DNA of 64,000 nucleotides from Pohlia nutans. Taxonomy: Eukaryota > Streptophyta > Bryopsida > Bryales > Mniaceae. The stretch is taken from contig CM040087.1 of the NCBI GenBank assembly GCA_022496805.1, positions 4,910,001-4,974,000 on the forward strand, given 5' to 3'. The notes below the pieces were generated by a model. It made no database searches and was not told where the DNA came from. It saw nothing but the letters and a program-made list of their open reading frames with translations. The translations under genes were made by a program, and so were the position numbers. Shown here piece after piece: positions 8,281-54,732 of the stretch (its first letter is position 1; the number at the start of each line of letters is the position of its first letter).

Positions 8281-8447
8281 CCCCTAAGCGTCTAAATCGC
8301 CCAACATGGCCATGATCTGCATCACTGAACTTTACAACGGTGGCATTTTCTCATTTTACCTCGGTTTTCTGATTACAATCAACATCATTTTAAAGCTCTT
8401 GTTCTGTACTACAAGATGAACAGTGTCGATTGTGTCAAACTGAAGTC
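8281..8447. mobile_element. piggyBac-like MITE, 3'-truncated, upstream of the S-protein homologue
   Basis: TTAA at 8277-8280 is followed by CCCCTAAGCGTC. The first 167 bp match, in opposite orientation, the complete 243-bp copy at 14918-15160. The match stops near 8447, 42 bp before the presumed ATG of the downstream gene. The end carries CCAACATGG centred on nucleotide 25. The far end is missing, so no second TTAA is present. Confidence 0.65.
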
Positions 8448-8489
8448 TCTGGTGTTGTGTTTATGAATTTCTTTGTGCAGGTGGGATCC

Positions 8490-8993
8490 ATGAAAATGTT
8501 ACGCCACGGTGACGTGATTCTGCATACAGTGCTAGGAGCACTAGGAGCTGCATTATTGCTGCTGTTGGTAACGACGACGACATTAGCGGCGGCGGCAGAC
8601 AATGGCGGCAATCCGTCGGGATCGTCCGTGAACATCATCAACGGGCTGAACGACTCGTTCGTGCTGCACTGCTGGTCCAAGGACAACGACTTCGGGCAGG
8701 TGGCCGTGAACCCCAAGGGCAACTTCTACTGGAAATTCGACCCCAACATCTTCGGCCGCACGCTGTACAGCTGCGAGTTTCTGTGGGGCAACAAGAAGCA
8801 GGACTTCCCCGTGTGGCAAGGCAGTTTCTACGACGAGCGGCCCAAGTGCTGCGCCCGCGGCGCCTGCGCGTACCGGGTCAGCCCGGACGGCATCTACTAC
8901 GGCCTCGTCAGCGACGAAGACGACAATGCGCCCGGTGAGTCCTGGGAGGTTTACAAACCCTGGTTGCCGAATCCCATTCCTTCCGACGATTAA
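8490..8993 (+). CDS. S-protein homologue (plant self-incompatibility S1 family)
   Basis: Single-exon gene of 167 residues from the ATG at 8490, which directly precedes a good signal peptide (residues 1-36: hydrophobic run LGALGAALLLLLV, ending ALAAAA-like). An upstream in-frame ATG at 8463 is possible but weaker, and a CAG at 8478-8480 could be a splice acceptor for a 5' UTR exon. The mature part has the S1 pattern: VNIINGLNDSFVLHCWSKD, DFGQVAV, FYWKF, LYSCEFLWG, then CCARGAC and DGIYYG. The paired cysteines typical of this small secreted beta-sandwich family are present. In poppy the family founder is a stigma ligand, and other members are secreted peptides of mostly unknown role. Codon third positions are strongly GC-rich while the flanks are AT-rich. 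The acidic tail after DGIYYG is longer than usual. Confidence 0.8.
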   Translation: MKMLRHGDVILHTVLGALGAALLLLLVTTTTLAAAADNGGNPSGSSVNIINGLNDSFVLHCWSKDNDFGQVAVNPKGNFYWKFDPNIFGRTLYSCEFLWGNKKQDFPVWQGSFYDERPKCCARGACAYRVSPDGIYYGLVSDEDDNAPGESWEVYKPWLPNPIPSDD

Positions 8994-9034
8994 TTAGAAG
9001 GTACTGTAATCAGTTTCGGAAGAACTCAGACAGC

Positions 9035-9376
9035 CTCTCTGTTTGGATTTGGAGTCAATGGCAGATCAGAAACTGGTCCTACGATCTGATCAAGAATAAG
9101 CTGCAATTGTGAAATGACTGTATAATTAGTTGTCTAGAAGCATCTCAGGTTTCAAATGATGCTGTAGTACTGACTCACGCTGTCTGTTTGGTGTTTACAA
9201 GAATATATATATCCACAGTCTTTGTATTTGGATTTGGAGCTCATGACAGAGCAGAACATTATGAAGCTGGTCCTACGATATGATGAAGAATAGATGTGTA
9301 AATGTCTAGAAGCATTTGTTTCGGTGATGCTTACGCTGTCTGTTTGTGTTTACAAGAATATCCAGTCTCTGGAGCT
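9035..9376. repeat. About 170-bp tandem duplication downstream of the S-protein homologue
   Basis: Two diverged direct copies (about 9035-9205 and about 9212-9376) share TTTGGATTTGGAG, CTGGTCCTACGAT, GTCTAGAAGCAT and CGCTGTCTGTTTG in the same order. They lie in the probable 3' UTR or immediate downstream flank. Confidence 0.7.
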
Positions 9377-9539
9377 CATGTAAGCTAACGGCCCACTTAA
9401 TTTGTGTCAAGAAGTGAGATTTATGCTGTACTTAGTAGTGGGACTTCCTGGTCTGAAACAAATTCTCTGGCAGCTTCTGTATATAATTCGAATAAGTTCC
9501 TGTATGGTCACATGCGTTGTCGTAGACACTCGTTGGAAC

Positions 9540-9625
9540 TAATGCCCGGCAGGCTGCTAGCAGTCATCGATTCTTGTGGCCGCAAGGTCCCGGGTTCGAT
9601 TCCTGCTGAAACCTATAGTTCTTAC
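9540..9625 (+). repeat. tRNA-like (SINE-type) sequence
   Basis: GGTTCGATTCC at 9593-9603 matches an RNA polymerase III B box. An A-box-like TAGCAGTCATCG lies about 34 bp upstream, a normal tRNA spacing. The segment does not fold into a complete cloverleaf by eye, so a tRNA-derived SINE relic is more likely than a functional tRNA gene. Confidence 0.35.
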
Positions 9626-9776
9626 TGCACTTAAACCGGAGGTGCCGCACCGGTCGGCTGCACTCCGTAACTGGACAGGCCTTTTGTCCGTTTCCACATT
9701 ATTTTCACATTATTTCCTCGATACGGTTACCGTAGCAAAATACTGTAGTTCCAATATAGTAAGTTTAACCTTTTAA

Positions 9777-10770
9777 CCCTTTAGCGCGCCACCGTCCATA
9801 TATTGGACGACGAACATATCTCATGTAGAATGGACAATTTTCATCCACCAAAATCATTCCTAGTTCTTGTGCAAATTGACTATTCTTTGAACGGTTTGGA
9901 TCTTCAAAATAGGTTATTATGATTTTTAGAAAAGTAACACAATTGGTTCATTTCAAGTTTCATTTTTAGTTCAAAAAGTGAGACCTCAAACATGATTTTC
10001 TAAAATAGGTGGAATCAAATAATGGAAACCATACCATCTTGTAGGGCATGTTATTCCAATTTCATTACAATTTTGTGAATTTTTTTTTGTGTTGATTTGG
10101 GATTCTTAATTGAATTTGAAGAGAAAACCTTTCAAAATTAAATAAAAAATATTATAAAATATATGATGCATCCAAGCGTACAGATGTGATCTTCACATTG
10201 ATATTTACAAGTTTTCTTTGTACATCTACTTCATTTTAGGGTTTCATCAAACATTTTACAGGGCATCTTGGAAAACAATGTTGGATTGGGATGTTAAAGG
10301 GTTAATGTCCCGATTCAACACTGATTTCAAAGAATGATGCCTTGTTTAATGTTTGATCAATATCAACAAAAATGAAGTTGATGTATAAAGCTAAGTTGCA
10401 AATATGAATGTAAAGATCGCATTTGCATAGTTGGATTTATTATATTTTTTGTTAATTAAATTTTATTTAATTTTCAAGCTTTTCTTTTGGAATTCAATTA
10501 AAAATCCCAAGTCAACAAAAATCAATATAATTATTTTTGTAATGAATTCGTAATAACATTCACTACAAGATGGTATGATTTCCATTATTTGATTCTACTA
10601 ATTTTGGCAAATCATGTTTAAGGTCTCACTTTTGATATTGTACAATTAATAGTCAACTAGCATAAGGACTAAGAGAAATTTGGATGATTGAAAAACTGTA
10701 CATGATGTGGTTAAGAGGAAGGTTACAATCTGTTCGTCATCCATTATATGGACGCAAATGCGTGAAAGGG
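9777..10770. mobile_element. piggyBac-like element, one continuous palindrome
   Basis: Flanked by TTAA at 9773-9776 and 10771-10774. The ends are CCCTTTAGCGCGCC and, inverted, CCCTTTCACGCATT. Both ends carry a palindrome centred on nucleotide 25 (GTCCATATATTGGAC; TCCATATAATGGA). The inverted arms extend almost to the middle, about 450-500 bp each, around a loop near 10280-10330. No coding capacity. Confidence 0.8.
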
Positions 10771-10774
10771 TTAA

Positions 10775-11899: not shown

Positions 11900-12127
11900 T
11901 TTCCCCTAATGATATCTTGCTTGTTATTGAATTACAAAATAATTTTGAATTTTAAGTTTCAAATTTATACAAATATATTGGTAATAGCAATCCTTAAGAA
12001 TAGAATCTAAAATTCGTAATGTACAACTTTTATTCATACATCAAGTTCAAAACATCCCTCCTAGGTACATTTTATAATGCATCTTTGCAATTATGCAATC
12101 CTAGAGAGGGATGAGGTCATGTAGGGG
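11900..12127. mobile_element. Truncated piggyBac-like element
   Basis: Sequence from about 11930 to 12127 matches the elements at 33181-33728 and 34520-35010 (shared AATGTACAACTTTTATTCAT and ATCAAGTTCAAAA). It ends in GTAGGGG followed by TTAA at 12128-12131. The other terminus is lost, and the left limit is where similarity fades. Confidence 0.6.
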
Positions 12128-12131
12128 TTAA

Positions 12132-14917: not shown

Positions 14918-15160
14918 CCCCTAAGCGTCCACTGTGTATTTTCTGTAGTGTAGGAAAATTGGACCCCCTGCTGCAAATCATCTGTTTGTGTGAAAATGAC
15001 TTCAGTTTGACACAATTGATACTGTTCATCTTGTAGTATAGAACAGGAGCTTTAGAATGATGTATTGCAATCAGAAAACCGAGATAAAAATGAAGAAATG
15101 CCACCGTTGTAAAGTTCAGTGATGCAGATGGCCATATTGGGTGTTTTAGACGCTTAGGGG
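14918..15160. mobile_element. piggyBac-like MITE, 243 bp, complete ends
   Basis: Both ends read CCCCTAAGCGTC inward. The flanks are TCAT on the left and TTAT on the right, so the expected TTAA pair has decayed. The right end has CCAATATGG centred on nucleotide 25. It is the full-length relative, in inverse orientation, of the truncated copy at 8281-8447. Confidence 0.65.
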
Positions 15161-15955: not shown

Positions 15956-18698
15956 TTAATTTATAATGGGGTCGAAAATGTCAGTCCAATTGCTCGCAGT
16001 CCATGCGCCATCGGCTCCAACAACCATGACACCATTCACGAGGAAGGAAGGTGTTTGGACCACTCCTCTTGCGCATCCATACTGCATCAGCCCACAACAA
16101 TGATTTAATTTTTATTTATTTATTTTGACACACGAATTGCTTTGCAACCCGCAGCAACTCGTCAACCCGTCCAAGAAAAAGTTAAACCATGTATGGTCGG
16201 CCTACATCCTCCTTTTAACCCTTAAGCGCCTGAATGACCAATTTTGGTTCAGCATCTTTTGCTGCAGTTGAAATGCGATTTTGGCCATCAAGATGATACT
16301 TTTTAAATTTGAGCTTAACTAACAAAATGTAGCTTACAAAGTCTAGTTTCCACTCCATCTTAAAATTTTGAAAAATTCCTAAAATTGAATGATTTATAGC
16401 AATTACAAGTTGAGGGTGTATTACCGTGGCATGTCCACAATGTTCCACGGTTATAGGTTTTCCACTGTATTTTTAAATTTTTAAATATTTTTTGAGCATG
16501 GTTAACAAACTAATTTTTTTCTTTATAATTAACACATTTGACAAGTTTTTTGTATTTTTAAAATATAGTTTATAATTGATGTGAATTTTCTTTGCTTTTG
16601 TCACTTTGAAAAATTATGATAATTTAAATTTTGCATTAATAATTTTGAAAAAATCATATATTGTAGTTGACATTCGGTTTCATGCAGGAAAAATATGAAA
16701 TTTGATTTTTATTCAATAATAATGGTTAAAGATAGCATACGGTCTTAAGTTTTTCCACCACGGTAATAGGGTCAGGCATTTAAGGGTTAAGATGAAGGTG
16801 CCCCGCAATTACATTTTTGTGATAATAGGAACAATGTTGGTAATGGGTCCGCTTAGTACCTTATGTTTCTAACAAATGTCACCACTATGAAAAGGAACAT
16901 GCATTATGAAAAGGGACATACATAGCACTACAACATGTATCTGGTGAGTACAAAGCGTATTACAAAGCGTATTATTGTCATATTCGTATACTTGGGAATT
17001 TCCACCATTGTGGGACTCTTTGAAATCTACAATTGGTATAGAATTTCCCAGTGAATCTATGCCTGTTGTAGATTCCAGAGAGTCCCAATATGACAAAAAT
17101 TCCCAATTAAACGAATATGACGATAGTATCTAATGTGCTCACTTACTCCCCCGAAAACGAGGTGGCTATGACGAGCAGAGTAATATTCACTCCATGTGAA
17201 AACCGAGAATCCTCACAAAGCGGAATCAGACTGAATTGCAGAGTCAGCTGAAATGACACAGGCAGGGTTGAATTCTTGCCTTGAAAGAGGTGCGAGTGGC
17301 AAGGTTGGTGACACTATTGTTAAAGCCAGCTTCAAATTCATCTGCAGGCATCCCAAGGTCCCCTGCCAAAGAGGCCAGCCGCCTCCTCACAGATGCTGGA
17401 GACTCCTCATCCGTTTTGAGGTTTGAGAACGAGTCCTGCACAAGTGAGCACTCACATAATGTTAACCCTTGAATGACCAAGGATTTATGCATTGGTTTTG
17501 AAATGTCAAATTTAATCGGTCGTATTGTGAAAAATATAATTCAAATAGGATCAGATTTTATATCAGTGAAGAACATTGCATGTGTTGATTAAAAGACAAA
17601 TAAATTTGAATAAAAGGAAGCCTACATATGCTCTATTCAAAACTGCTATAAAAATCATGAGATCCAATTTGGGCTTTTGGGTCCTCTAGGGGTTAAAGAG
17701 TCGTGGAGAAGAAGAATAATATTTTAGGGTTAGTTTTAGTAATTAACGTTACATGCATAACATTCAGTGGATGTGCCTTGGCTCTAGAACACATGGTGCA
17801 GCATATTCCACACCCAATAGGACTCTATCAATAACTAAGTGGACAGGTGGAGTTCCAAGGTGATGTGGAGAGTGCATGAAAAAAAGGTAGAACACATGAA
17901 GGCTACTGAATGATGTGGAATATGGTGCACCATGTGCTGTAGAGCCAAGGCAAAATCATTGTATGCTACTGAATGGTATGTAGTTGTAAATAGCAAACGT
18001 TGTCTTTGATGCCTCCTTTCAAAAATAGACTGTGTGACATAGACTTGTATAAAGAGCTCAAACCAAACATATAAAGGAAAGCCAAATCATTGTAAAACCT
18101 CGTTTACAGTCCACATACTTGGTTTTCAAAAATGTCCTCTAAAAGAGGAATGACAAGGGAAGCATTTATAGTTTGTGCAATATGAAGGGCCCTTGCTCCA
18201 AAGAATGAATTATGATGAAACCTGCCACAAGAAAGTGCTCTTAGGTTACTAAAAGAGTGGGGATCATTTGGTCAAAATGAAAATCCAAATTACATGACTG
18301 TGATGGTTTTTTACATTACAACTTTGAACTCTCATCTCTATCAAGTCGATACTTGATAGTGTAAAGAAAAAAGTGTCATTGTAGGCTTACGGAACCGAAA
18401 AGGGATGCACAATGAGGCCAAGGGAAGAAGAATTATATTGCTCCTTTACTTGCTTCACAATTGGCCAACTCATCTTGCTATAGGGGCACATAGGATCGAC
18501 AAAAACTTCCCACTTAACAAGATTACAATTTTTAGTGGTATACACAAATCCATCATAGCGCTTAGGAATTGCAAATTGTGCCAAACTACTATTAAAAATT
18601 GAGAAGAATACTACAAATGTAAGTACCTCCTTGTAAAAAGAAAAGACACATTGAGACAAAGTGTTTTTGAAGATAGCCATCATCTTTGTCTTCAACAA
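15956..18698 (-). CDS. Secreted DsbA-like thioredoxin-fold protein, four exons
   Basis: Exons 18698-18391, 18221-18119, 17435-17280 and 16081-15956 join in frame to about 230 residues, stop TAA at 15958-15956. Exon 1 holds a signal peptide (hydrophobic VLTFVVFFSIF, then SSLAQ), IPKRYDGFVY and the active-site-like VDPMCPYSKMSWP. Exon 2 gives FFGARALHIAQT. Exon 3 gives PADEFEAG and LATRTSFK. Exon 4 gives YGCARGVVQTPSFLVNG, including the cis-proline TP, and ends DPIIN. This is the plant thioredoxin-superfamily type resembling At1g20225. The motif is CxxS, so a dithiol oxidoreductase role is unlikely. Donors are GTAAGCC and GTATGTG; exon 3 ends AAG|GCAAGA, a probable GC-AG intron. The exons are separated by MITEs (16219-16786, 17466-17692, 17757-17979). 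Start choice between ATGs at 18698 and 18683 is open. Confidence 0.8.
16219..16786. mobile_element. piggyBac-like element in intron 3 of the thioredoxin-fold gene
   Basis: TTAA at 16215-16218 and 16787-16790. The ends are CCCTTAAGCGCCTG and, inverted, CCCTTAAATGCCTG. The left end has ACCAATTTTGGT centred at nucleotide 24.5. Its internal sequence GAGCTTAACTAA is the unoccupied version of the site filled in the element at 20637-21518. Confidence 0.8.
16965..17135. repeat. Foldback in the thioredoxin-fold gene intron
   Basis: Inverted arms on either side of about 17045 share GTCATATTCGT, TTGGGAATTT, TGGGACTCT and AATCTACAA. The hairpin is about 75 bp per arm and imperfect. Termini and target duplication are unclear. 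Confidence 0.6.
17466..17692. mobile_element. piggyBac-like MITE in intron 2 of the thioredoxin-fold gene
   Basis: TTAA at 17462-17465 and 17693-17696. The ends are CCCTTGAATGACC and, inverted, CCCCTAGAGGACCC. CCAAATTGG is centred on nucleotide 25 of the right end. It starts 30 bp from exon 3 and is related to the 220-bp element at 35371-35590. Confidence 0.75.
17757..17979. mobile_element. MITE of the ATAACATTCAGT family, copy 1
   Basis: The ends ATAACATTCAGTGG and GCTACTGAATGGTAT are inverted. The sub-terminal CCTTGGCTCTA is mirrored by TAGAGCCAAGG, and GGTGCAGCATATTCCACA by GTGGAATATGGTGCACC. It lies in intron 2 of the thioredoxin-fold gene. Other copies are at 31886, 32075, 53659 and 55133. 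Confidence 0.75.
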
Positions 18699-19155: not shown

Positions 19156-19507
19156 CCCTTTAACATCAAGAGGGCCTGAATAGGGTAGCCCGGAAGGAAT
19201 CTAATTTTTTGGGGGAAAATTAAAAATTAAAAAAAAAAAATCATAAATGGCTCTGCAGTGCACTGTAGCACTGCGGCACTGCTGAACTTCAGCTGCTCCA
19301 ACCTCAAAACTTGTTCAATTTGATAACTTTGATTGCTTACCAACGATTCCACAATCTCTCAAATGAGGCGAAAATTTGGAATCTAGATTGCTTTTTCAGT
19401 AGCTTTTCAACGCAACAAGTCTCGCTTGATTTGGTTGAGAAAATCAACTTTTTTCTTCATTATTCTCTTCTAACTAAGCCCATGGGGCTTACCTTGACGT
19501 TTAAGGG
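19156..19507. mobile_element. piggyBac-like MITE, 352 bp
   Basis: TTAA at 19152-19155 and 19508-19511. The ends are CCCTTTAACATCAAG and, inverted, CCCTTAAACGTCAAGG. The right end has TAAGCCCCATGGGCTTA at nucleotides 17-33. A near-identical inverted copy lies at 32819-33176. It abuts the next element through a shared TTAA. Confidence 0.85.
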
Positions 19508-19511
19508 TTAA

Positions 19512-20632
19512 CCCCTAAAAGACTAACCTATAACCATAGGGTATAGACATCATTTTAGTTGGTCTAATTATCAACTATAAGATACATGTAATATCAATTT
19601 TATGATTTTTTAGAATAGTGCCATATACTATCTACATGCCATAAAAAATTTGGAATTATTTGTGATGTTTTGAAATTACTATGACTTTTATAAGCAAGAC
19701 AGTTAAAAAAAATTCATATTATTTACAAATTTTGCTCAAAAAATTTGAAAAGTTTGCAATAATTTAATGTCACAATTAAATATCTTAAATTTTTGACCAT
19801 GCTTAAAAATTATGTGTAAATCCAAAATTAGGATGAAAAAACCTAAATCTATGGAAAATCAAGAATGAACCATGGTAATACCCCTTCAACTTGAAACTAC
19901 ACTAAATAGTGTATTTAGTGTGAGGTGATGAATAATGTGCTTACCCCTACTACTTGTCTAACACTAATTGTCAATTTGTGGGTAATTAGTGTTGGCGGTT
20001 ATCATCCAATTTGATTCATTGTCAGTTATCATCCAATTTGATTCATTCCATTTCTAAAATTTTAGTTTTTCCATCTAAACTTTCATCTCAAGTTTCATTC
20101 CTTACTCACACTAAATATCCATATCTCAAAAGATCACTATGTCAAAACGTTACTATTCTTCATAAATAGTGTGAGAATTCACATTCAGTGTTTTTACAAA
20201 AGTAGTTTATCTGATATTTAGAGTGATGTTCGCAATTACAGTGCCTCACACTAAATACACTATTTAGTGTACTGTAAATCATTTGATTTTACATATTTTT
20301 TGGAAATTCAAATTGGTGGTGAAATTAGACTTGGTATGATTTATTTTTGTAGTTTGGCTCAAATACATAAGAAATCATTACGATAGCTAAAATTGGGTCT
20401 AAGCATAATAGAGTCAAATGTTCTGGAATACATTCCACGGTATTGACGTTTTTGGCTTCAATGAGCCATAAAGTATCATAAAAACAATGATTTGATACGT
20501 TTCTAGTGCTACTAGGAAGATTTTAAACGAATTTACCAAAAAGAAAAATGATGAAAACAACCACATGAATGAAAATTTGTCAATGCTCAAAGAATGAAAA
20601 CAATTAGATTTTGGTTGTTAGGCGTTTAGGAG
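19512..20632. mobile_element. piggyBac-like element, 1.1 kb, with a nested foldback
   Basis: Shares TTAA 19508-19511 with its left neighbour and 20633-20636 with its right neighbour. The ends are CCCCTAAAAGACTAAC and, inverted, CTCCTAAACGCCTAAC. An imperfect palindrome lies at nucleotides 17-35 of the left end. The 370-bp TA-flanked foldback at 19900-20269 is inserted within it. Confidence 0.7.
19900..20269. mobile_element. TA-flanked foldback with CACTAAATAG ends
   Basis: Both ends read CACTAAATAGTG inward, continuing GTATTTAGTGTGAGG, between TA dinucleotides at 19898-19899 and 20270-20271. It is related by its termini to the 101-bp element at 32104-32204. A TA duplication favours a Tc1/mariner-type mechanism, but CACTA ends with a 2-bp duplication cannot be excluded. 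Confidence 0.6.
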
Positions 20633-32802: not shown

Positions 32803-32818
32803 GCTTAACCCTTAAACG

Positions 32819-35370: not shown

Positions 35371-35590
35371 CCTCTAAAGGACCAAGACGCCCTCATGTTT
35401 TTATAGCAGTTTTGAATAGGTCCTATGTAGGCTTCTTTTTATTTAAATTTGTTTGTCTTTTGATCAACACATGCAATGTTCTTCACTAATTCTGATGATA
35501 TAAAATTTGTACCCATCTGAATTATATTTTTCAGAATATGATCAATTATACTTGTCATTTTAAAACCATGAATCCGTGGTCCTTTAGGAA
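35371..35590. mobile_element. piggyBac-like MITE, 220 bp, decayed ends
   Basis: TTAA at 35367-35370 and 35591-35594. The ends are CCTCTAAAGGACC and, inverted, TTCCTAAAGGACC. The interior (CATGCAATGTTCTTCACT) is related to 17466-17692. No clear palindrome remains at nucleotide 25. Confidence 0.7.
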
Positions 35591-42185: not shown

Positions 42186-42727
42186 CACTTACAAACAAAA
42201 CTGAGTATTGATTTGAAACTTTTCCATTCAAACAACCATATCATGAGCATCAATGGGCAAAGTCCAAAAGTGAATTTGCAAAAGTTGTAGTGTGCAACAT
42301 ATAACACATTACTACCGAAGTTTGAAGAGAAACTCAATTGTGATTTGAAAGAAAATGAATTTTAAAGTTAGCCATGTCTAAAACTCAGTTTTGTGCGCTA
42401 CAAGTTGGAAGTACTTTAAATTTTGTGAATTTTTTCTTATAGCTTCAATAAAACTTTTTGTGCCTTGGCATGTTGGTATACATCGTTTTAAAGTGTTTTA
42501 CGCAAAAATTGAAGGAAGTTGACATTTATAGAATTTAAAATATCGACAATTTGACAAACATGCAAATGATGTTGGTTTTCACGATATTTGAATTTGTTTT
42601 TGGATTTGAGATTTTGGGACTGCAATGGCCATTGTATAGAGAGCATACATTGCAATATGACCATTGTTACATCTTAATGCCTTTACATTTGAAATAGTTG
42701 TTGAATAGCCAAAGTGTTCAATTTATA

Positions 42728-43030
42728 TATTAGAGTTGTATGATGCATTTTTTTGGTTTGACTTTTTTGTACAAAGTCTAGGGTTCATGATGCACATACT
42801 CAATTAACCAATTGAAAAACTTGTTTCTTTTGTGTTCAATATCATCAAAATATTGTCAATTTTATGAAAGTCAGTGTAATTTCTGGCAGTTTTGAATTTT
42901 TTGATGATATGGAAAATAATATGTTTTTTAATTTTGATTTGTAGGATTGATTATGTGCGTCATAAACTCTAGTTTTCGTACAAAAATACTAAACCAAAAA
43001 ACTACATCGTATAGCTCCAATATATAAAAA
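42728..43030. repeat. Foldback present only in the left terminal repeat
   Basis: The arms share TATATTAGAG/CTCCAATATA and TTTTTTGGTTT.GT.TTTTTGTAC. The right terminal repeat passes from CAATT to ACACAATTCGCTATTTA without it. Related sequence forms the inner end of the terminal repeats of the element at 55045-61762, so it may be an ancestral part lost from the right end or an insertion. Confidence 0.6.
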
Positions 43031-43421
43031 CACGCAATTCGCTATTTATGCACTTGGCCAAGTGCGCTCATTTCATAAGCATATTTGACTTTTAAAAAGG
43101 TTGATTAAATAGTTCTCTAAAAAACATCAATGTTGTCTTTCTTCAATCCCCTACATTTTAAACAAATAGTTATTTTAATAAATTTTTATTCTCATCTTTA
43201 TCTTTTCTTTTACCTTTTCTTTTATCTTTTCTTTTTTATCTTGATTTCTTTCTTGTCTTCTTTCTTGTCTCCCTCTTGTCTTTCTTCTTGTCTTCTTTTT
43301 GTCTTTCTTCTTGTCTTCCTTTTTGTCTTCGTTGTCTTTTTTCTCTTCTACTTTTTCTTCAGTTGTGGCTGCTGAACCCTAAACAATGGGAGCAAACCAA
43401 AAAAAGAAAAAAAGAAAAAAA

Positions 43422-43423
<2 letters not shown>

Positions 43424-43463
<40 letters not shown>
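43424..43463. repeat. Poly(T)/poly(A) tracts in the Mutator-like terminal repeat
   Basis: An about 40-bp T run, followed by A runs near 43516-43540 and 43588-43597 alternating with CTGAATGGCAGC(C/T)GCC. The mirrored A and T runs lie at 48729-48760 and 48905-48957. Lengths differ between the repeats, as expected for slippage. Confidence 0.85.
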
Positions 43464-43464
<1 letters not shown>

Positions 43465-44522
43465 CCGTTTTTCGGGTTGGCCGTGGGGTGCTGTTGAACC
43501 CTGAATGGCAGCCGCCAAAAAAAAAAAAAAAAAAAAAATCCCTTTTTCTTGGCCGTTGGGTGCTGCTGAACCCTGAATGGCAGCTGCCAAAAAAAAAATC
43601 TTTTTTTTTGACTTTTTTGACTTTTTCTAAAAATTACTATTTTTAGCCGCTTGGGTGCGCGGCCGCGCACCCATAAACCTTCTCATCTCCATCCCTCCCT
43701 CTCCATCCCTCCCCTCTCCTCATATATATAGGGGAGAAGAGAGCCTCGGCACTAACGGCGCATCGGAAATGCGTCAGCGCCCCTCCTGCTGTGGAGCCCG
43801 GCCTGGCCTCTCTCAGCCCGCCCGCCTGCCCGCCCTCGCGTTCTCTCGAGTTCCCTCGCGTTCCCTCGCCGCCTGTGTTCGGTACCTCCGTATCCAGCAG
43901 TAAGCCCCTGACGAGCTCCGTTCCCAGCAGTAACGCTGTTCCCAGCCGACGAGCTCCGTTCCCAGCCCGTATTCCGCCGTTCCCGCTCCCCCTCCACATA
44001 CCCGCCCAGCCGGAGAGACCCGCCCGAAAGAACCTTCTATGTACTATGTTCTCCCACTTCTTGCAGCCAGCGACTGCGGGGACTGGGAGCAAATTCGCCC
44101 CTCCCCTGCTCCAAGCCCTCCAACTCCAAGCAGAAGGTGGTTACCCATTCCCAATTATACGGATATGAGGCATTGATATTATTTTGTATTGTTATTTTTT
44201 ATAGGTAGGCAAGGAGAAATAGATTACAACACAAGTTGAAGTATAATTTTTGGATGAAGAATGAATTAGTTATAAATTTTCAAAGTTGAAGTATGACGCA
44301 TCCCATTCACGTCATGTAGGTGCACCTCTTTCTATCTAAAGAAGATTTGTCTTGCACACACTAAAGATGTTTAAACCAAAAACAACCAATTCATAACCAC
44401 ATTTACATATATTAAAACCAACAAGAGAGAACCATTACCAACTGTAACTCATGCTACAATCAACACCATTAGAACATTGATTGTGGAAAACCCATAACGA
44501 CACTTTTTTGAAATCTCCAATT

Positions 44523-47500
44523 TTATTCCAAACTCAAGTAACTCTCACAATTCTTGCACGACACATAATCATCCCCTTTCTCCACTATTGTGTACACTTT
44601 ACATTTGTCACAATGTACCTTAGGAACCCTAGGAAATATAGTTCTCCTTTGCTTTGAATGAGCCACTAGCACATGAGTTGTACGTTTCGAAGGTGATTGT
44701 GGACAACTTCCCTCACCATCTTCTTGAGCCACACGTTTTTTTCCATGTCCCATCCGTGTGCGCTTTACATTCTCTTGAATGCTGGCTATAGATCCACGTA
44801 CAGGCAAATCAATAGTGGAAGGTCTTTCAAAGGTAAATGGCTCTGAAAGAGATGTCAGAAACTTCTGCACAAGAATTTTTTTGTATATCACCTCTTCTCC
44901 ACTATAGGTTTGAATTGAAGACCTCAATTCTTGAATCATAGTCTCTGCTTCCACCAACACATCTAACAATCCTCTCTGCTGATCATCGTTTTCTGCAAAC
45001 TCCGTAGTCATATCTACAATTGAAGCATCCAATTGTATAGGAGATAATGGTTCCTCATTGTCGATATACTCCTCAATTGATACTCTTGTGGTTGATGGAA
45101 GAATAAAATATTCTTTCACAATTCGTTGCACTCCCAATATATGCTTGCAAGTTGAGACACTACTTGCACATTCACAAAAATAAGTGTTCAAAGAAACACT
45201 ATACTTTGTGTTAGGTGAAGTTTCACTTACCACATAGAATAACATGAGTTCCAAATTAACAACGTCCAAGACTTCACTTGGATTCAATTGATAAGCTTTG
45301 AATATATGCTCCCCTCCTTTCATGATTCGACGATGTTCCTTATCGTTGCCTCTCCTAGAAAATCGTTGAGAATCACCTATACATCATACCAAACTTTATT
45401 AAAACCATAATGAAACCAAGTAAAATCTTCATGGTTACAAGTACACACAACCAAAACATAGAAAGGGTTTAGGGTTAAAAGAACTCACTTATGAGTTGCA
45501 CCATTTGAAAATGATCTACCAAAGTGGGCCTTCCAATACGACTTCCATCTTCCGCACTACCAACGATGGCAATGATAAGATCCCTCAAGGCACGGTTCAC
45601 CTTGGCTTGGAGTAAGGCATACTTAATCCACTCCCAATGCCGTTCTATGTAGTTGGTTGTATCCATACCACCGTAAGCAAAGAGCCGGCCAAATCATGGC
45701 CATAAATTCCTCCATTGTACTCTTCGACCTGCCCATCCAGCCTCCATATACTCTGCTACACTAGGTATGTGCTGAAAATCCTCATAAAGCTTTTCGAGCT
45801 TTTCCTCAAAATCCTCTTCCTTTGAACAATGCATCAAGACATGTAGAGCTATCCAAAGTTTGTTCTTTTCGGGTATGGGAACACGAGTTAAGAGGTTTTC
45901 ACTCCAAGCCTTCATAACATGGAAATGACATAACAAAACTTTGCCAGCCACTTGTACCTTCTCTCCATTTTCGATGCTCCAACAATATTCATCACTTCTA
46001 ACAATGGTATTGATAGAATTTAGTGACGTTTTGTCCTTGTCTATAACTATGGCGGAAGGTCTTACCGCTCCCAAAGATGCAAAAACGGCAATCAACGCCA
46101 ACTCCAAGGCAATACCCTGATGCCCTTGATTTTTATCCTTCGTACACAACCTGTAAAACACAGGGACTCCTTTTCTATCTTGGTTTGGTACTACAGCAGC
46201 ATACAAAGGTAAATCGTAGTCATTAGTCTTAAATGTAGAGTCTAGGGCCCAAGAGTTACCATGTGAGAATCTTCTTGCAACGTCTCTCATCCAATCATCT
46301 TAAATGACTACAATGAATGGCCGCTTTCTTACATCCTTGTCCTTTGGTGCATACGGTTGATAAAAAATAATCTTCCCCTGCATTTGCAACCTCATAATTT
46401 CCACTTGAGCAACATCCCAGTCATGTTTGCGTAGAGTATCTACACAATACACAAAATAAATTTACTTACACATTCAAAAATTAACAAATTGTATCTAATC
46501 ATAATAAACAACAATAATCTATTGAATAATATCTTACCATTTATTCTCATAGAGTACTTGAGTTGATTGACTTCTTTAGGTATGATGAAAAAACGGTAGG
46601 TTGCACGCTCCAAGTCTCCAACCATGGCTTCTATTTTTTTTGCATCACGTTTGGATGCAAGAAAAACTGTAGATGTAGAAACCATTCTTTTCAAATTCTC
46701 TTTGGCCATGGTTATAACAGACGGATGTACAGGTAGAAATAATATGTCATTTTGAGATCTTGGTACATGGCCTCTATGCTGAGTATGCACGGAAATAGTA
46801 CACTCCCTTCCTTTGAATGCTCCACTATTTTTGTCATTCACAATAGGTTCCACAGTTTTCAATTGAAAAGTACAATCTCGTAACTTACTCTTCCTATCTT
46901 ATCTATTGTCCCTTACTAGAGAGGGTCTCACAGCAGGTGCCTTCACATGAGGTCGGTTTTTGTTTCCACTCCTATGACAACGGTAGTACTTAACAATGTG
47001 ATTTTTGTACCGAGTGTTTTGACGCAACCTACGTAAAACAACATACTTCACGCATATTTTATCAAGGGTGGCATCTAGAACGTCATGAGGAACATTATGA
47101 ACCTCATCCCACAACTTGGATTCATTGCAAGTGGGGCACGATTCAAGACAACTCTCTACATACTTGCTGTGGATCCCTCCCACTCTAAAATCTATGGTCC
47201 AATGTGCACGAATTGCATCAAGTGTAGAAGTTAGGTTCAAGTGTTTGCCATTAACATCAACATGGGACTCTTCTACAATTGAACACCAACGTTCAATAGG
47301 AGGAATTTGCCTTCCTTTTAAGTCTTGTCTCGTAGGAGACAAACCAATGCCCCCATTAACACTTATCAACTTCACACTATCTTGAAGTTTTTTCCATCGC
47401 TCAATGGTATGAAAAGCATCATCAATATCTATAGGACGGCCATGACTCTTAGAAAGAGGGCGGAAACTAGCATCTGCTTCACGAATTTGCTCAAATACAG

Positions 47501-47891
47501 GTAACACTTGTTTTTGTAAACACTCAATCGTGAGGTTACTACTTCCAAGTGTGAAATGAACAAACTTTGGGAAAGTCTCAATATGGACATGTTCAAAAGA
47601 AGGAAGAGAAGGCTCATCTATAGGAAACTCCATGTTGCCACTTGAAGAGTTTGGAGGCTCATCGTGACTCCCCTACATTTCCTCGTGCGCTTCGTCATCA
47701 CCATCATTTTCGGATTCGTAATCCGAACTGTTGAAATACGTCTCGCCAAATGTTGTAGTGAAATCAAAATCACTACTACTCCCGTGGGTACCTCCAAGAA
47801 TTTCTTCCACCCCCGCAATATAGTCTAATTCCTCTTCAAAATCCGAAGGATAGGAATAATCATCCTCTTGCCCTAAAGTACCTTCCTCCAT
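44523..47891 (-). pseudogene. MULE transposase gene with four in-frame stops
   Basis: Three exons fit (47891-46538, 46439-45489, 45376-44523), about 1,052 codons, with donors G|GTAAGAT and A|GTGAGTT and acceptors TGTGTAG and GTATAG. An acidic N-terminus is followed by a Cys/His-containing region (SCPTCNES), the MULE DDE core (SWALDSTFKTND; VIDKDKT; CHFHVMKAW; NYIERHWEW), a SWIM zinc finger (FCECASS, then CKHILG) and a C-terminal zinc ribbon (CDKCKVYT, CKNC). Stops interrupt the frame at 47673-47675, 46899-46901, 46300-46302 and 45694-45696, with no frameshift seen. A working copy would cut and paste the element by binding its terminal repeats. This one should be inactive. The family is MULE with SWIM, as in FAR1-related transposases. 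Confidence 0.8.
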
Positions 47892-48149
47892 GGACCCCTC
47901 AACCCTAAATATATACTACACCTAATTAAACAAGAATAATGTGCGAAGTTGGAGAAAAAGCCCTAAACAAAATAAATAAAAGAGATGCTCATGCACAACG
48001 TAAATGTGGGGCACTCAAAGTGGGGCACTCAAAGTGGGAGGGAATGAGGTGGTGAGAGGGAATGAGGAGGTGAAAGGGAATGAGGAGGTGAGAGGCTGTC
48101 CTTTTCTCTGCTGTGGTACTATTCTTCTGCTGGGTACTATTAGCTTGAA
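47892..48149. promoter_or_regulatory. Upstream region of the MULE transposase
   Basis: Between the transposase start and the inner edge of the right terminal repeat. It contains direct repeats of GTGGGGCACTCAAA and GGAATGAGGAGGTGA near 48006-48092. The promoter probably lies here or in the GC-rich part of the terminal repeat. Confidence 0.35.
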
Positions 48150-48287
48150 GAGGGGAGGGGCGAATTTGCTCCCAGTCCCCGCAGTCGCTGGCTGCAAGAA
48201 GTGGGAGAACAGAGTACATAGAAGGTTCTCTCGGGCAGGTCTCTCCGGCTGGGCGGGTATGTGGAGGGGGAGCGGGAACGGCGGAAT

Positions 48288-48350
48288 ACGGGCTGGGAAC
48301 GGAGCTCGTCGGCTGGGAACGGCATTACTGCTGGGAACGGAGCTCGTCAG
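48288..48350. repeat. GCTGGGAACGG repeats in the GC-rich part of the terminal repeat
   Basis: GCTGGGAACGG occurs three times in about 60 bp, two of them continuing AGCTCGTC. The left terminal repeat has the mirror image near 43908-43972. This makes a candidate binding array for transposase or host factors. Confidence 0.75.
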
Positions 48351-48583
48351 GGGCTTACTGCTAGATACGGAGGTACCGAACACAGGCGGCGAGGGAACAC
48401 AAAGGAACTCGAGGGAACGCGAGGGCGAGGGAATGCGAGGGCGGGCGGGCGGGCTGAGAGAGGCCTGGCCGGGCTCCACAGCAGGAGGGGCGCCGGCGCA
48501 TTTCTGATTCGCCGTTAGTGCCGAGGAGAGGAGAGGGTCTCTCCCATTCATTCTTCAACTCCCTCTCCCTCCCCTCACCTCTC

Positions 48584-48586
<3 letters not shown>

Positions 48587-48631
<45 letters not shown>
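48587..48631. repeat. (TA)n microsatellite
   Basis: An alternating TA run of about 45 bp inside the right terminal repeat. The left repeat has only a short TATATATA at the matching place near 43722. Confidence 0.9.
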
Positions 48632-48634
<3 letters not shown>

Positions 48635-49840
48635 GAGAGGAGAAGGAGAAGAAGAGGAAGAAGAGTCTTTGAGTGTGCGGCCGCGCACCCCAGCAACTAA
48701 AAATAGTAATTTTTACAAAAAGTCAAAAAAGTCAAAAAAAAAAGTTTTTTTTTTTTTGTTTTTTTGGCAGCTGCCATTCAGGATTCAGCAGCACCCCACG
48801 GCCAAGAAAAAGGGGAAAAAAATTAAAAATTAAAAAATTAAAAATTAAAAAAAATTTGGCGGCTGCCATTCAGGGTTCAGCAGCACCCCACGGCCAACCC
48901 GAAAAACGAAAAAAAAAAAAAAACAAAACAAAAAAAAACTTTTTTTTTTTTTTTTTTGGTTTGCTCCCATTGTTTAGGGTTCAGCAGCCCCAACTGAAGA
49001 AAAAGTAGAAGAAAAAAAAGACAACGAAGACAAAAAGGAAGACAAGAAGAAAGACAAAAAGAAGACAAGAAAGAAGACAAGAAAGAAGATGAGAAAGAAA
49101 TCAAGATAAAAAAGAAAAGATAAAGATGAGAATAAAAATTTATTTAAATAATTATTTGTTTACAATGTAAGGGATTGAAGAAAGACAATAATCATTGGTT
49201 TTTAAAAAATAAAAGTTAGACAAATAAAATCCTGCGCTCGGGGACCAAGTGCATGATTATATAGCCAAGTGCGTAAATAGCGAATTGTGTGTTTAAATTG
49301 AACGCATTGGCCTATTCAACAACTATTTCAAATGTAAAGGCATTAAGATGTAACAATGGTCATATTGCAACCTATGCTCTCTATACAATGGCCATTGCAG
49401 TCCCAAACTCTCAAATCCAAAAACAAATTCAAATATCGTGAAAACCAACATCATTTGCATGCTTGTCAAATTGTCGATATTTTAAATTCTATAAATGTCA
49501 ACTTCCTTCAATTTTTGCGTAAAACACTTTAAAACGATGTATACCAACATGCCAAGGCACAAAAAGTTTTATTGAAGCTATAAGAAAAAATTCACAAAAT
49601 TTAAAGTACTTCCAACTTGTAGCGCACAAAACTGAGTTTTAGACATGGCTAACTTTAAAATTCATTTTCTTTCAAATCACAATTGAGTTTCTCTTCAAAC
49701 TTCGGTAGTAATGTGTAATATGTTGCACACTACAACTTTTGCAAATTCACTTTTGGACTTTGCCCATTGATGCTCATGATATGGTTGTTTGAGTGGAAAA
49801 GTTTCAAATCAATACTGAGTTTTGCTCGTCACTGTAAGTG

Positions 49841-50656: not shown

Positions 50657-51310
50657 TTAACTAACCAATGACTTTTCTTTATCACTTTTGAAATATTCAA
50701 CCATGACAGGGTTTGTTTGTACAATTTCCAAATCAACTTCTTTGATTTCTTTAACTTTCAAATCTTCTTCCAATTTTGCAAGCATTTCCAAACTTATTTG
50801 TTTATCACGTTTTGCCAAATGGTTCACAAGTAAGAAAAACAAGGGTGTTGGAACTTTTTCTCCCGTCTTAGCTCCAAAAAGCTTAAAAAGACCTCTTAAT
50901 ACAGAAACAAAACTCTTAGCAGTGCAGGTGAGCAGAAGTAAGATGAATTCCTTGGGATCTACCAAATCTGATGGAAAATTTGCAAGTTTGAAGACATTCT
51001 CAATAGCAGCATCATGGACTTTGATTTTTTTTGCAATTTCCGCAAGTGGCTTTTGGTTGATGTATTCAAGGTCCTTGGTTTGTTGATACAAATCAATAAG
51101 TTGTTCCATGGTTGGAGGCGGAGCTGTGACATCCAATTTTATCATTGTCAAAAGATTTTGAAAATACTCCAATGCAAATTCTTCCAAGTTTTCCGGTTGA
51201 GCTCGAATAACTTCTTTAGCAAATGTTTTGAGCAATGTTGGTAATCCATTGGGGATTTTGATTTGTTCTACACAATAGATTGGCTCTTGATCAAAAAGAG
51301 ATTTAGACAT
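50657..51310 (-). CDS. RIIa-domain protein, ropporin / radial spoke RSP11-like
   Basis: An intact, intronless 217-residue frame. Residues about 13-50 form a dimerisation/docking domain of the PKA-RIIa type: VEQIKIPNGLPTLLKTFAKE, then VIRAQPENLEEFALEYFQNL. The rest is helical, including a segment near residues 118-200 (LLLLTCTAKSFVSVLRGLF; PTPLFFLLVNHLAKRD) that fits the C-terminal half of ropporins. Length matches ropporin-1-like proteins (about 210-230). In Chlamydomonas, RIIa proteins RSP7 and RSP11 dock on an amphipathic helix of RSP3 in flagellar radial spokes. In a plant this implies a sperm flagellum protein, expected in antheridia. No EF-hand is present, so RSP11 is a better match than RSP7. 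The short acidic Lys-rich end (SDKEKSLVS) is unremarkable. A retrocopy origin is possible given the lack of introns. Confidence 0.8.
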   Translation of the reverse strand: MSKSLFDQEPIYCVEQIKIPNGLPTLLKTFAKEVIRAQPENLEEFALEYFQNLLTMIKLDVTAPPPTMEQLIDLYQQTKDLEYINQKPLAEIAKKIKVHDAAIENVFKLANFPSDLVDPKEFILLLLTCTAKSFVSVLRGLFKLFGAKTGEKVPTPLFFLLVNHLAKRDKQISLEMLAKLEEDLKVKEIKEVDLEIVQTNPVMVEYFKSDKEKSLVS

Positions 51311-52620
51311 GACGAGTGTAACCCTTCTCTTCCTAAAACATTACATATACTTTGTAATATATTTGTAATACAATTCAAACCTTATTCATCACCATCTTCA
51401 TAAAAATAAAAATAAAGAGATTAACAATTCATACATTTCAACATCTGGTAGAATTTTCAATTTTATTCATGTGGTGATTACTTTCACAAATTTGCTTTAG
51501 CTAATTGAAGAATAAAAATTAAGCATGAATGTTATCAATCAAACTACATCAAGAAATTAGGGTTTCCACTTATTTTCAAGTACACAAAGAGATTTGGGGA
51601 TATGATAAATCCTTGATTAATTCAAATGTTCATCCAATAGGACATCTACCTTCACATCATCCACCCAAACTCTTTGATGACCCGACTGTGTAGACATATG
51701 AGTTCACTAACTAGGATCACTAAACATGTCCATACAATTCACTAACTTAAATCATACACATAAGCATTTAGTTCACATACTTGAAATTAATTTTTTATTT
51801 TCAAATGTAAAGATAACATGAAGATATCATCAACGTGGATGGTGTAGAAATGAAGGGAAAAAGAAACAATGAGAACAGGAGTTTTAACAAAAAATAAATG
51901 TTACAAGCATTTATATGGCCAAATGCTCAATCACATGAGAGAATATGTGAAAAATTATTTCCAAAATCATGAAAAATTATTGTGAATTTCTCTCAATTTT
52001 TTAACTACCCTCAATTTTTTTTGGTGTTGCATAACATTCATTCTTGTCCTAGTTTGAAAATCATCCTTTCAAAGCTTATGTAATGCATAGTAATTTCTTA
52101 TCTAGTAGGGTTATTTTAATTTTTTAAATGTAAAAGTTTAAAAGCAAAAAAAAGAAAAAAGAAAAATCTAAAGAATTTAACAACAAAGAAAACAAGAAAG
52201 ACAAAGGTGATGAAAATTTCTTGTTTTGTCTCCTTGTTTATTTTTGATTTTTTAATTTCTTCACATTTCTCTCTAATACAATTACTACTTGAGATGAAAC
52301 ATTTATATAGTGTGAGATAAATAAATTGGAACAAAATTGATATCAAGTTGTGCAAAAAATGTATTTTTGTGTTTATATGGGTATTATTCTAAAAATATGA
52401 ATTTAGCTCTAGGTCGAATGTCATGCACCGTTGCACGACTAAATGACAAATACGTTGCTAACAAGAACTGTAACCAGCTTATCATCCACAAGGATGATAA
52501 AGATTCCTTGTTTGTCTGTACACAATAAAGAAAGAGAATATTCTTTGGAGAGAAATGAATTCGAACGGAAGTTAATACAATGAGAGCATTTCCACTAGTG
52601 AAGCTATTGGCTCAACGTTA
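51311..52620. promoter_or_regulatory. Upstream flank of the RIIa gene
   Basis: AT-rich sequence that should contain the promoter. No confident core element. A purine-rich stretch (AAAGAAAAAAG repeats) lies near 52140-52200. No gene recognised. Confidence 0.25.
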
Positions 52621-53166
52621 TTTCTAAAAATAAAGGTCTTGATTTGACTTGGGAAAGAATTTTTGTCAATCATAACGTTTGAGGTTGATGATTTGCTTGT
52701 GGATACCAGTCAAACTCCTCTTGTTTGGTGAAATTTAGGTTTGAATTCATGATATGAGGTTGGAAAATAGAGATATGACGTCTCATGGGCATGCTTTGAG
52801 AGAATATGAAGCTTCTTTGTTCAAGCTTTGAATTGTAAACGGATTGTCTGTCTTCATCTTTTCGTGTGCACAATTTTGGTATTAAATTGTTTGTAAATGC
52901 TTTTGAAAATTATACTCCCTTCATTTTTTTTGCATGTTTTAATTTAACGCCTTTATCACCCAAAAAAAGTCGTCTCAATACTCAAAAAATGATCTATCTT
53001 CAATAGTAGTATGTAGTTTTTGTGTCACTCCTGTCCTCAAATTTCTTGCTAAAACTTGAGGCCTCGATTTGACTTTGGAAGGTTTTTGCCAGCCATAGCC
53101 CATAAGTTGGAATTTGCTTATAGATACAAACTAGACTCCTCCTGTTTAACAAAATTTCGGTTTGGA
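52621..53166. repeat. Diverged direct repeat pair, about 125 bp
   Basis: Copies near 52630-52745 and 53045-53165 share TCGATTTGACTT(T/G)GG-like sequence, GATTTGCTT.T.GATAC and CTCCT.(C)TTGTTT, in the same orientation. The second copy is cut by the MITE at 53170. Confidence 0.5.
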
Positions 53167-53169
53167 GTA

Positions 53170-53484
53170 AGGTAACTATATCTAAAAGCAACCATTTCCT
53201 TAAAGCGTGCATAGCTCAATCTTCCATAATAAGTAGATTCTGACACCCTACTGTTGATGAGAATGTGCAAAATCTGAACATCAGAGTTTAGGGTCGCTTT
53301 AAGGTCAACCTATAGTTAACACTTTGGAAATTCATAACTTATTCATACAATGTCCAAATAATGCATGCTAAAGTGCGTTGGAATCGTCTTGAACTTGCTA
53401 ATAAGACCCACTGAAAATATTTTCTGTGTTATGTGTGTAAATAGGCTCAGTTGGTAAGGTGAACGCTTTAAGGTATAGTTACCT
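53170..53484. mobile_element. TA-flanked MITE with AGGTAACTATA ends, copy 2
   Basis: Starts AGGTAACTATATCTAAAAG and ends with its inverse GGTATAGTTACCT, between TA at 53168-53169 and 53485-53486. The left arm AAAGCGTGCATAG matches copy 1 (AAAGCGTGCGTAT). At 315 bp it is longer than copy 1 and could be closer to the ancestral form. Confidence 0.75.
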
Positions 53485-53658
53485 TAGTACATAATATTTT
53501 TGAGTAGCAATAATGCTCACCTTCGAATCTCAACCATCTGCACGTTAGGGGATCAAAGAATTGCAAAGAATCTTTTCTAATTTCAACTAATACAAGCAAA
53601 AAGGGTTGGAGAGTTGAATTATTTTGTTAGCAGTTTTTTATAGTGTTGCCTACAATAC

Positions 53659-54437
53659 ATAACATTCAGTAACATGCACTATTTCTATCTTAGCTCTATA
53701 GTAGAAGGCGTGGAATATTCCGCACTCAACAATACTTCATTAGTAGCTAAGAGCATTCCCACCCATGCACGCTAGGACCAACTTGCTGAAATTATTCATC
53801 TACATTTGAAGGGCCCTTGCACTCACACTCCCCCATCCTTGCACGTCCCTCACATATCAATCAAATAATCAATGGACCAATCACAAGTAAAATGTGAGGA
53901 TATAGTCAACTAAATAGTGATTTGAAGGCCCATTTTCTAACATGCTAGGATTGAGAGTAAGAGCAGGGCCACCCATGCCCTTAGAGAGTCTCTTACACTC
54001 CAAAATTAAATGAAAAGTTCCAAGGGCCCTCTCAAAACACCTCTTGACTATGAATCTTAACGTGTTAGAAATTGGGCCTTCAAATCACTATTTAATTGAC
54101 TATATCCTTCTATTCTACTTGTGATTGGTTCATTGACTATTTGATGTGTACTTTTGATACATGAAGGGCGTGCAAGGGTGGAGAAGTGTGAGTGCAAGGG
54201 CCCTAGGTTGATATAGATGAATAATTTGAGAGAGTTAGTCCTAGCGTGCATGGGTGGGAATGCTCTAAAGAGGTATTTTTGAAGTGCCCTTGGCACTTTC
54301 CATCCACTTCTTGATCTGTGTGAGAGACTCTCGGAAGACATGAGTGGCCATGCTCTAAGTGAACAAGTGGAGGCTCAAAGTGATAAGCAGAGTGCATGAA
54401 AGGAAGGCAAGGGACATGAAGGCTACTGAATGTTACG
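53659..54437. mobile_element. MITE of the ATAACATTCAGT family, copy 4, split by other elements
   Basis: The left end ATAACATTCAGTAAC and right end GGCTACTGAATGTTAC surround inserted sequence at 53751-54355. The flanking halves match the uninterrupted 140-bp copy at 55133-55272 (GTGGAATATTCC, AACAAGTGGAGGCTCAA). Confidence 0.75.
53751..54355. mobile_element. Two interleaved foldbacks with TAA target duplications
   Basis: Foldback A: 53751-54265, ends GAGCATTCCCACCCATGC, flanked by TAA at 53748-53750 and 54266-54268. Foldback B: 53961-54355, ends GAGCA(G/T)GGCCAC.CATG, flanked by TAA at 53958-53960 and 54356-54358. The order is A, B, A', B'. TAA duplications and the shared GAGCA start fit PIF/Harbinger (Tourist-like) elements. 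Confidence 0.65.
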
Positions 54438-54491
54438 TATAAAGAATGTGGTTCAACAAGGTATAAACAACATTATGTGTGTGAGGTTTAA

Positions 54492-54732
54492 CCCTTGTGA
54501 GCAAGCGAGGACATATGTGTCCCTGTGGTTTGATTTTGAATTTGATGTACATCTGTTGTATTACTTCATAAGTTAGTTTGCAAAAAAATTGAAAAAAATC
54601 ATGGCCATCAGAAACCCTTATAAGCATCACTTCTGCATATCTTCAGATTGATTGCAAACTATAATCCCTTTATTAATTCAACCACTTCCTTTGTATCTCA
54701 ACCGTATCCAGAAGATGAAAACCTTGCAGGGG
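54492..54732. mobile_element. piggyBac-like MITE, 241 bp
   Basis: TTAA at 54488-54491 and 54733-54736. The ends are CCCTTGTGAGCAAGC and, inverted, CCCCTGCAAGGTTTTC. GGACATATGTGTCC lies at nucleotides 18-31 of the left end. Confidence 0.8.

Follow-up and report, generated by a model that had tools for sequence, protein, structure and literature searches.

Which transposon superfamily gave rise to the short, TTAA-flanked elements that crowd a stretch of the genome of the moss Pohlia nutans, and what moved them? The stretch, referred to here as the window, comprises 64 kb (positions 4,910,001-4,974,000) and was described in an earlier note, from its letters alone, as land-plant DNA carrying a swarm of piggyBac-like miniature inverted-repeat transposable elements (MITEs). 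The host is indeed a land plant, and two tests named in that note, the occurrence of TTAA at genome-wide copies and a search for a DDE_Tnp_1_7 transposase with the same ends, both came out in favor of its reading. We conclude, with a probability of about 95%, that the swarm consists of transposase-less miniature piggyBac elements of at least eight or nine families, moved in trans by full-length elements of the same moss genome. The elements duplicate TTAA, two of their family groups have ends in common with transposase-bearing elements, and a palindrome stands at a fixed distance from one end. The superfamily itself is known; what the moss adds to it are new members in an unusual host, and no new kind of element is proposed.

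Paired TTAA-CCCYT ends in the window

The sequence TTAACCC[CT]T (TTAACCCYT below) occurs 23 times on the two strands of the window, compared with 1.51 occurrences expected from a first-order Markov model, and the other 15 four-base palindromes precede CCCYT between zero and two times each. In 100 second-order Markov simulations, TTAA-CCCYT ends were found 0.9 times on average and three times at most. Facing ends at distances of 150-1300 bp can be paired 11 times in the window, with overlap between some pairings, and not once in the same 100 simulations. Telomere-like CCCTAAA repeats were rejected as a source of the tips, since the tips are not arranged in tandem, adjoin TTAA and pair up. Two lone TTAA-CC ends, at 36593 and 63437, for which no partner was found, are chance occurrences or remnants. 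Altogether, 14 two-ended elements and two fragments (D1 and C3) were resolved:

8281-8447, plus strand: D1, one-ended fragment of family D next to TTAA 8277-8280; matches D2 at 89.5% over 171 bp; end CCCCTAAGCGTC
9777-10301, plus strand: E1a, 525 bp, TTAA on both flanks, palindrome at the left end; inserted at a TTAA within the terminal inverted repeat (TIR) of E1b
9769-10770, minus strand: E1b, inverted copy split by E1a (9769-9776 and 10306-10770); TTAA at 9765-9768 and 10771-10774
11912-12127, plus strand: C3, fragment of family C with intact plain end, TTAA 12128-12131; matches C1 and C2 at 76-82%
14918-15160, minus strand: D2, complete copy of family D; ends CCCCTAAGCGTC identical over 12 nt; flanks TCAT/TTAT
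16219-16786, plus strand: E2, TTAA on both flanks; matches E4 at 72-80%; unfilled counterpart of the site of N
17466-17692, plus strand: B1, TTAA on both flanks; matches B2 at 80.9% over 199 bp
19156-19507, plus strand: A1, TTAA on both flanks, the right one in common with E3; matches A2 at 86.7%
19512-20632, plus strand: E3, TTAA on both flanks (in common with A1 and E4); related to E2/E4, aligns to E2 with a score of 162
20637-21518, plus strand: E4, of E2 type, TTAA on both flanks, interrupted by N
20737-21071, plus strand: N, nested within E4, TTAA on both flanks; its site holds a single TTAA in E2
32809-33176, minus strand: A2, second copy of family A; one TTAA in common with C1
33181-33728, plus strand: C1, TTAA on both flanks; plain end matches the autonomous elements L014, L016 and L023
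34520-35010, minus strand: C2, second copy of family C, flanks GTAA/TTAA; matches C1 at 82% over 355 bp
35371-35590, minus strand: B2, second copy of family B, TTAA on both flanks, end bases decayed
54492-54732, plus strand: F, TTAA on both flanks; palindrome GGACATATGTGTCC at the left end; the window shows no further copy

TTAA stands on both flanks of 12 of the 14 two-ended elements, the exceptions being C2 and D2 with the flanks listed above. The TTAA target site duplication that serves as a criterion for the piggyBac superfamily is present in these elements; for piggyBac-type insertions in moth, ATAA, the complement of TTAT, has been reported alongside TTAA (PMC8634313). Three single TTAAs in the window (19508, 20633 and 33177) are common to two neighbors. 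The elements range from 220 to 1121 bp, and eleven of the intervals make up 9.4% of the window. Comparing the window with itself gave families with full or partial copies, namely A (two copies, 86.7%), B (80.9%), C (76-82%), D (89.5%) and E2/E4 (72-80%). In family A, the sequence flanking the copies diverges from TTAA outward on both sides.

Further, TIRs of 12-19 bp with CC[C/T]T tips are given as a criterion for piggyBac (PMC2872659). Besides the 23 TTAACCCYT ends, the moss has elements whose two ends are identical across 12 nt (D2) or 16 nt (L028, one of the transposase loci described below); the two ends of several elements agree only in part. Twelve intervals had been proposed earlier to end in CCCT or CCCC. 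This holds at both ends of eight, but four deviate at one or both: 19512-20632 (one end CTCC), 20737-21071 (one end GCCT), 34520-35010 (one end CGCC, with a GTAA flank) and 35371-35590 (CCTC and TTCC). A start placed at 32819 had to be moved to 32809. Elements at 8281, 11900 and 14918 had been taken as decayed or truncated; the first two are one-ended fragments, whereas the third is complete (14918-15160), with 12 identical terminal nucleotides.

The TTAA duplication is directly visible at two sites of the window for which a filled and an unfilled version can be compared. E2 reads GAGC-TTAA-CTAA where E4 reads GAGC-TTAA-[N]-TTAA-CTAA. The second comparison concerns 9777-10770, which had been listed as one element of 994 bp. 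End-to-end alignment of its two halves gives a score of 362, compared with a shuffle maximum of 57, and the halves represent two copies in opposite orientation, E1a lying within the TIR of E1b; when E1a is removed in silico, the end of E1b aligns through a single TTAA with the plain end of E1a itself. A single element with long TIRs was rejected on the basis of this end-to-end alignment. Taken alone, the filled and unfilled sites are also compatible with a shorter duplication, TA or TTA, as in Tc1/mariner- or Harbinger-like elements, with TTAA merely being the preferred site. However, 12 of 14 elements retain the complete TTAA on either flank, as do nearly all of the family-A copies that were read, the element ends are mirror images, and the linked transposase is of piggyBac type, which leaves a shorter duplication hardly credible.

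For family A, 40 of 3103 first-look candidates in the genome were scored, and 42 matches were listed, the window's own included. Of these, 41 (A1 among them) cover at least 342 of 352 nt; as A2 is not among the matches listed, the list is a lower bound. Flanks were fetched for the best 20 of the 42 after the window's own. The left end adjoins TTAA in 20/20 copies (after placing the start of L045) and the right end plainly in 18/20, the exceptions being L046 with TTGA and L047, which is interrupted at a TTAA within its TIR by an element with the tip CCCCTAAACGTCCC. Some family-A copies (L029, L030, L034 and L047) adjoin other elements or nest with them. Nesting uses a TTAA within the TIR of another element (CCC-TTAA-A), and the tip itself is a possible target. 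A rough hand estimate of insertion clustering showed no clear excess over chance, and none is claimed.

Transposase-bearing elements with matching ends

No long reading frame was found in E1, E2, A, E3 and C, the five larger elements that were translated, and stop-free stretches in them reach at most 84 aa. Since the translated elements have no long frame and none matches the moth transposase, they would have been moved in trans. The assembly (697,796,988 bp, 332 contigs) was searched with PF13843 (DDE_Tnp_1_7), and 116 of 1305 first-look candidates were scored. The genome holds at least 116 matches, as all 116 scored far above the Pfam cut-off (258-282 bits), and many of them are stop-free open frames. 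In 14 control genomes, no DDE_Tnp_1_7 match was obtained.

Twenty transposase loci, all picked for the absence of a stop within the match, were read together with approx. 4 kb of flanking DNA at either end. Each of them matches the moth transposase (phmmer E 6e-24 to 1.5e-39), and they fall into seven groups with a between-group identity of 51% or less. The DDD triad of catalytic aspartates is present (in moth numbering, D268 in 20/20, D346 in 19/20 and D447 in 20/20 loci). By eye, a Cys/His-rich C-terminus was recognized in 19/20; the open frame of L028 stops before that stretch. When one moss protein per group was scanned, all seven matched DDE_Tnp_1_7 across nearly the whole length, and none gave a Pfam zinc-finger match above the cut-off. 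Protein searches with the moth transposase returned insects as the named organisms among the best 120 of 853 matches; with the L014 protein, the best 120 of 182 matches included two named organisms, both animals, and no named plant.

A TTAA-CCCY end is found on both sides in 13/20 loci, approx. 5-6.8 kb apart, with the end pairs of L018, L019 and L021 assigned by likeness to sister elements, not by best TIR score. Pairs of loci are similar exactly between these TTAAs, within one base: L013/L025 (97.7%), L013/L017 (89.5%) and L009/L018 (99.4% over 5,038 bp). Because near-identical copies stand in different flanks, these comparisons speak for recent movement. In elements of the L014 type (L014, L016 and L023), the transposase gene is bracketed by arrays of approx. 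80-bp repeats, those on one side being inverted relative to those on the other.

End comparisons point to elements with a DDE_Tnp_1_7 transposase as partners of two MITE family groups, E2/E4 and C, whose ends match theirs from the first nucleotide. In E2, nt 1-29, comprising tip and palindrome, match nt 1-29 of L009 (93%) and L018 (90%); no other part of these two elements matches E2 at E 1e-3. The plain end of C1 agrees with L014, L016 and L023 across 26 terminal nucleotides (92%), nt 49-87 of C1 match nt 66-105 of L019, counted from one end (82.5%), and the other end type of C resembles, by eye, the ends CCCCTAACTGCCCAA of L019 and L021. Families A, B and E1 recur beside the 20 loci, and an N-type end (39 nt) lies beside L027.

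TTAA is also used by Sola3 elements. For Kolobok the same target is reported (PMC9587614), and the swarm might accordingly be Kolobok MITEs moved by a Kolobok transposase. However, Kolobok termini read 5′-RR and YY-3′ (PMC9587614), whereas nearly all moss elements start with CC, an argument from the tips that was already made in the earlier note and stands; moreover, the transposase found with the ends of E2/E4 and C is DDE_Tnp_1_7. On the grounds of tips and matched ends, and not of a genome search for Kolobok, we consider a Kolobok origin extremely improbable.

The palindrome near nucleotide 25

Many ends had been described as carrying a palindrome of fixed position and varying letters. Its position is fixed far beyond chance; however, it is strong mostly at one end per element, not at both, and its core is common to most families. 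When complementarity was profiled over the 23 strict ends without selection, peaks appeared at centers 25.0 (0.547) and 24.5 (0.422), with a background of approx. 0.25 and the next highest value, 0.379, at center 52.0. The best score of centers 24.5 and 25 is 0.602, compared with 0.371 ± 0.036 at random TTAA sites and 0.352 ± 0.031 in shuffles (0/5000 each). With one element per family (n = 9; E2 and E3 are related, and the better end and register were chosen alike for observed and controls), the palindrome scores 0.742, compared with 0.499 ± 0.049 at other centers (maximum 0.589) and 0.495 ± 0.037 in shuffles (0/3000). The core consists of nucleotides 21 (C) and 29 (G), each conserved in 8/9 families. 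A second set of 20 other genome stretches (198 kb) held 56 strict ends with sufficient sequence, 42 after collapsing similar ones; the stretches are transposase-carrying loci, and the density of 18 ends per 64 kb is therefore not the genome average. In these 42 ends, the top center is again 25.0 (0.422), followed by 0.333 at 28.5, and 0/2000 shuffles reach the score.

The arms of the palindrome covary between families, as 46/72 pairs are matched compared with 30.2 ± 4.4 when arms are re-paired between families (4/10,000), a result somewhat favored by the prior choice of the better end per family. In the family-A copy L048, the outermost palindrome pair is changed on both sides. When 24 ends were tested for a box lying deeper in the opposite end, as in moth, E1 matched, being two copies, and the other 20 did not; the box of family B recurs weakly in its opposite end (13/17, p 0.007; 12/17, p 0.04).

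In moth piggyBac, a dimer of the cysteine-rich domain (CRD) binds bp 17-33, and the minor groove is narrowed around bp 25 (PMC7351741), which bears out the comparison drawn in the earlier note. Like the element of the moth Trichoplusia ni, the moss elements combine a TTAA target and CCC tips with a DDD transposase of the DDE_Tnp_1_7 type, a C-terminal cysteine-rich region and a palindromic box centered at bp 25 of one end (PMC7351741). Unlike in moth, the palindrome has other letters, the transposases are distant (E values above), and the box, which the moth element has on both ends (PMC11707139), is mostly confined to one end in the moss MITEs. In this respect they resemble piggyBat of the bat Myotis lucifugus, whose palindrome is imperfect, follows closely on the tip (3 bp beyond the bp 11-16 motif), occurs at the left end only and is unrelated in sequence to that of moth; its CRD His and Cys ligands are unlike those of moth as well (PMC11707139), as is the moss pattern, judged by eye. 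The left end of piggyBat holds three repeats of motif and palindrome (PMC11707139), whereas none stood out in the moss elements in a same-end comparison without shuffle control. Acropora coral CMITEs likewise have TTAA duplications, TIRs of 13-14 bp, CC[C/T]T tips and tandem neighbors, and one CMITE family is linked to a piggyBac-like element; however, they measure approx. 100 bp with a conserved interior (PMC2872659), while the moss elements are longer, and their interior varies by family with the end architecture being kept.

A putative CRD site, centered near bp 25 of one end, is present as a sequence feature. If the structures known from moth and bat are a guide, the first ~16 bp would be read by the core of the transposase, the transposase dimer would hold the tips, and both CRDs together would grip and bend the palindrome of one end; excision would proceed via hairpins, and the gap would close on TTAA and restore it. 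The palindromes of the families would differ since the CRD of each transposase differs, and recognition of the ends may involve two parts, a tip that is almost the same throughout (CCCYTAAA) and a box particular to each lineage. A one-sided palindrome in the MITEs is consistent with an inherently asymmetric complex. Alternatively, the swarm could be piggyBac and the palindrome a host-factor site, a hairpin or a relic of the origin of the ends. This alternative would allow for the finding that most elements have a weak box or none at one of their ends and that the box of some families is weak, but its position coincides both with the CRD-dimer site of moth and with the palindrome of the bat element, and its arms covary between families (the better end being pre-chosen). 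We therefore regard a role other than that of a CRD site as rather unlikely.

Several observations weigh against our conclusion. No transposase remnant was detected in the window, where the best match to moth piggyBac has an E-value of 0.095 (tblastn) or 0.21 (phmmer). In the second set, 30/42 ends score 0.7 or less, the palindrome of D2 is weak (0.5), and that of E3 is centered at 26. The role of the palindrome as a CRD site is argued by analogy, and mobility is judged from sequence comparison. Transposase-bearing ends were matched to two MITE family groups only (E2/E4 and C); for A, B, D, E1, F and N, no full-length partner was found among the 20 loci read, which had been selected for a stop-free transposase. 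This last point, together with D2 and its flanks other than TTAA, would also suit a mixed swarm, in which E2/E4 and C are piggyBac and one or more of these six families derive from a different group, of TTAA type or unnamed, whose ends are convergent. Nevertheless, tips, target and palindrome position are alike across the families, and E1 and C have the box GTCCAT...TGGAC in common, so that we consider such a mixture improbable and retain piggyBac MITEs as the explanation for the whole swarm.

Neighboring features and piggyBac in a moss genome

Five of the ten open frames of the window that were compared with Pfam exceeded the cut-off, and their domains (plastocyanin-like, self-incompatibility S1, Ovate, RIIa and MULE transposase) are those of plant genes. 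The fragment D1 adjoins the S1 gene (8281-8993), stops just upstream of it and overlaps its stop-to-stop frame; D1 may be the source of the 5′ leader of this gene. The RIIa protein (gene at 50657-51340) is 88% identical to a protein of Ceratodon purpureus and 73% to one of Sphagnum, which identifies the host as a moss. The best named relative is encoded on a Ceratodon contig of 110.5 Mb that bears a 'VG' locus tag and is taken here as the V sex chromosome of males; either sex linkage of the window or a relocation of the RIIa gene may account for this.

A MULE-type element at 42184-49836 has inverted arms of approx. 1.9 kb (42183-44116 and 49836-48143, with pieces matching at 78-97%) around the MULE-transposase frame. 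A second element with related inverted arms occupies 55039-61757 and contains a frame of 366 aa (55982-57082) without Pfam match. A short dispersed repeat (17756-17980, 32205-32335, 53658-53753, 54355-54432 and 55122-55256), several copies of which start near CATAACATTCAGT, has no TTAA/CCC ends. Beside the plastocyanin-like gene, at 4136-4564, direct repeats with offsets of approx. 80, 170 and 250 bp are up to 95% identical.

The statement that piggyBac is seldom reported from land plants is fair, but it needs qualification, as plants are named among its hosts (PMC2874221, PMC8086355) and a table of the C-fern genome gives 1230 PiggyBac copies (PMC6890710). In the literature searched on piggyBac and mosses or bryophytes, no description of moss piggyBac elements was found; the relevant word in PMC10619864 is 'piggybacking', and a Physcomitrella method paper (PMC5505980) uses the word piggyBac. 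The genome of Pohlia nutans is reported to comprise 698.20 Mb and 22 chromosomes, with DNA transposons making up 23.68%, and the word piggyBac is absent from the main text of that paper (PMC9247546).

Whether the piggyBac fauna of the moss is old, has diversified into at least seven transposase lineages, each perhaps with its own palindrome near bp 25, and has been mobile until recently is in our view an evenly balanced question; piggyBac elements and their MITEs would then perhaps account for a large part of the DNA transposons of this genome. If so, the genome would be a natural series for reading the rule by which CRDs recognize DNA. PiggyBac has been studied mostly in animals and is used as a tool there, and the moss genome, with no fewer than 116 transposase matches, copies alike at 99.4% and dense MITEs, is a case of the superfamily flourishing in a land plant. 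Moss genomics gains a name for a repeat class which the main text of the genome paper does not mention. Finally, the palindrome, constant in position and variable in its letters, had been a particular of the moth and bat structures; in the moss it becomes a trait open to testing in a large number of natural families.

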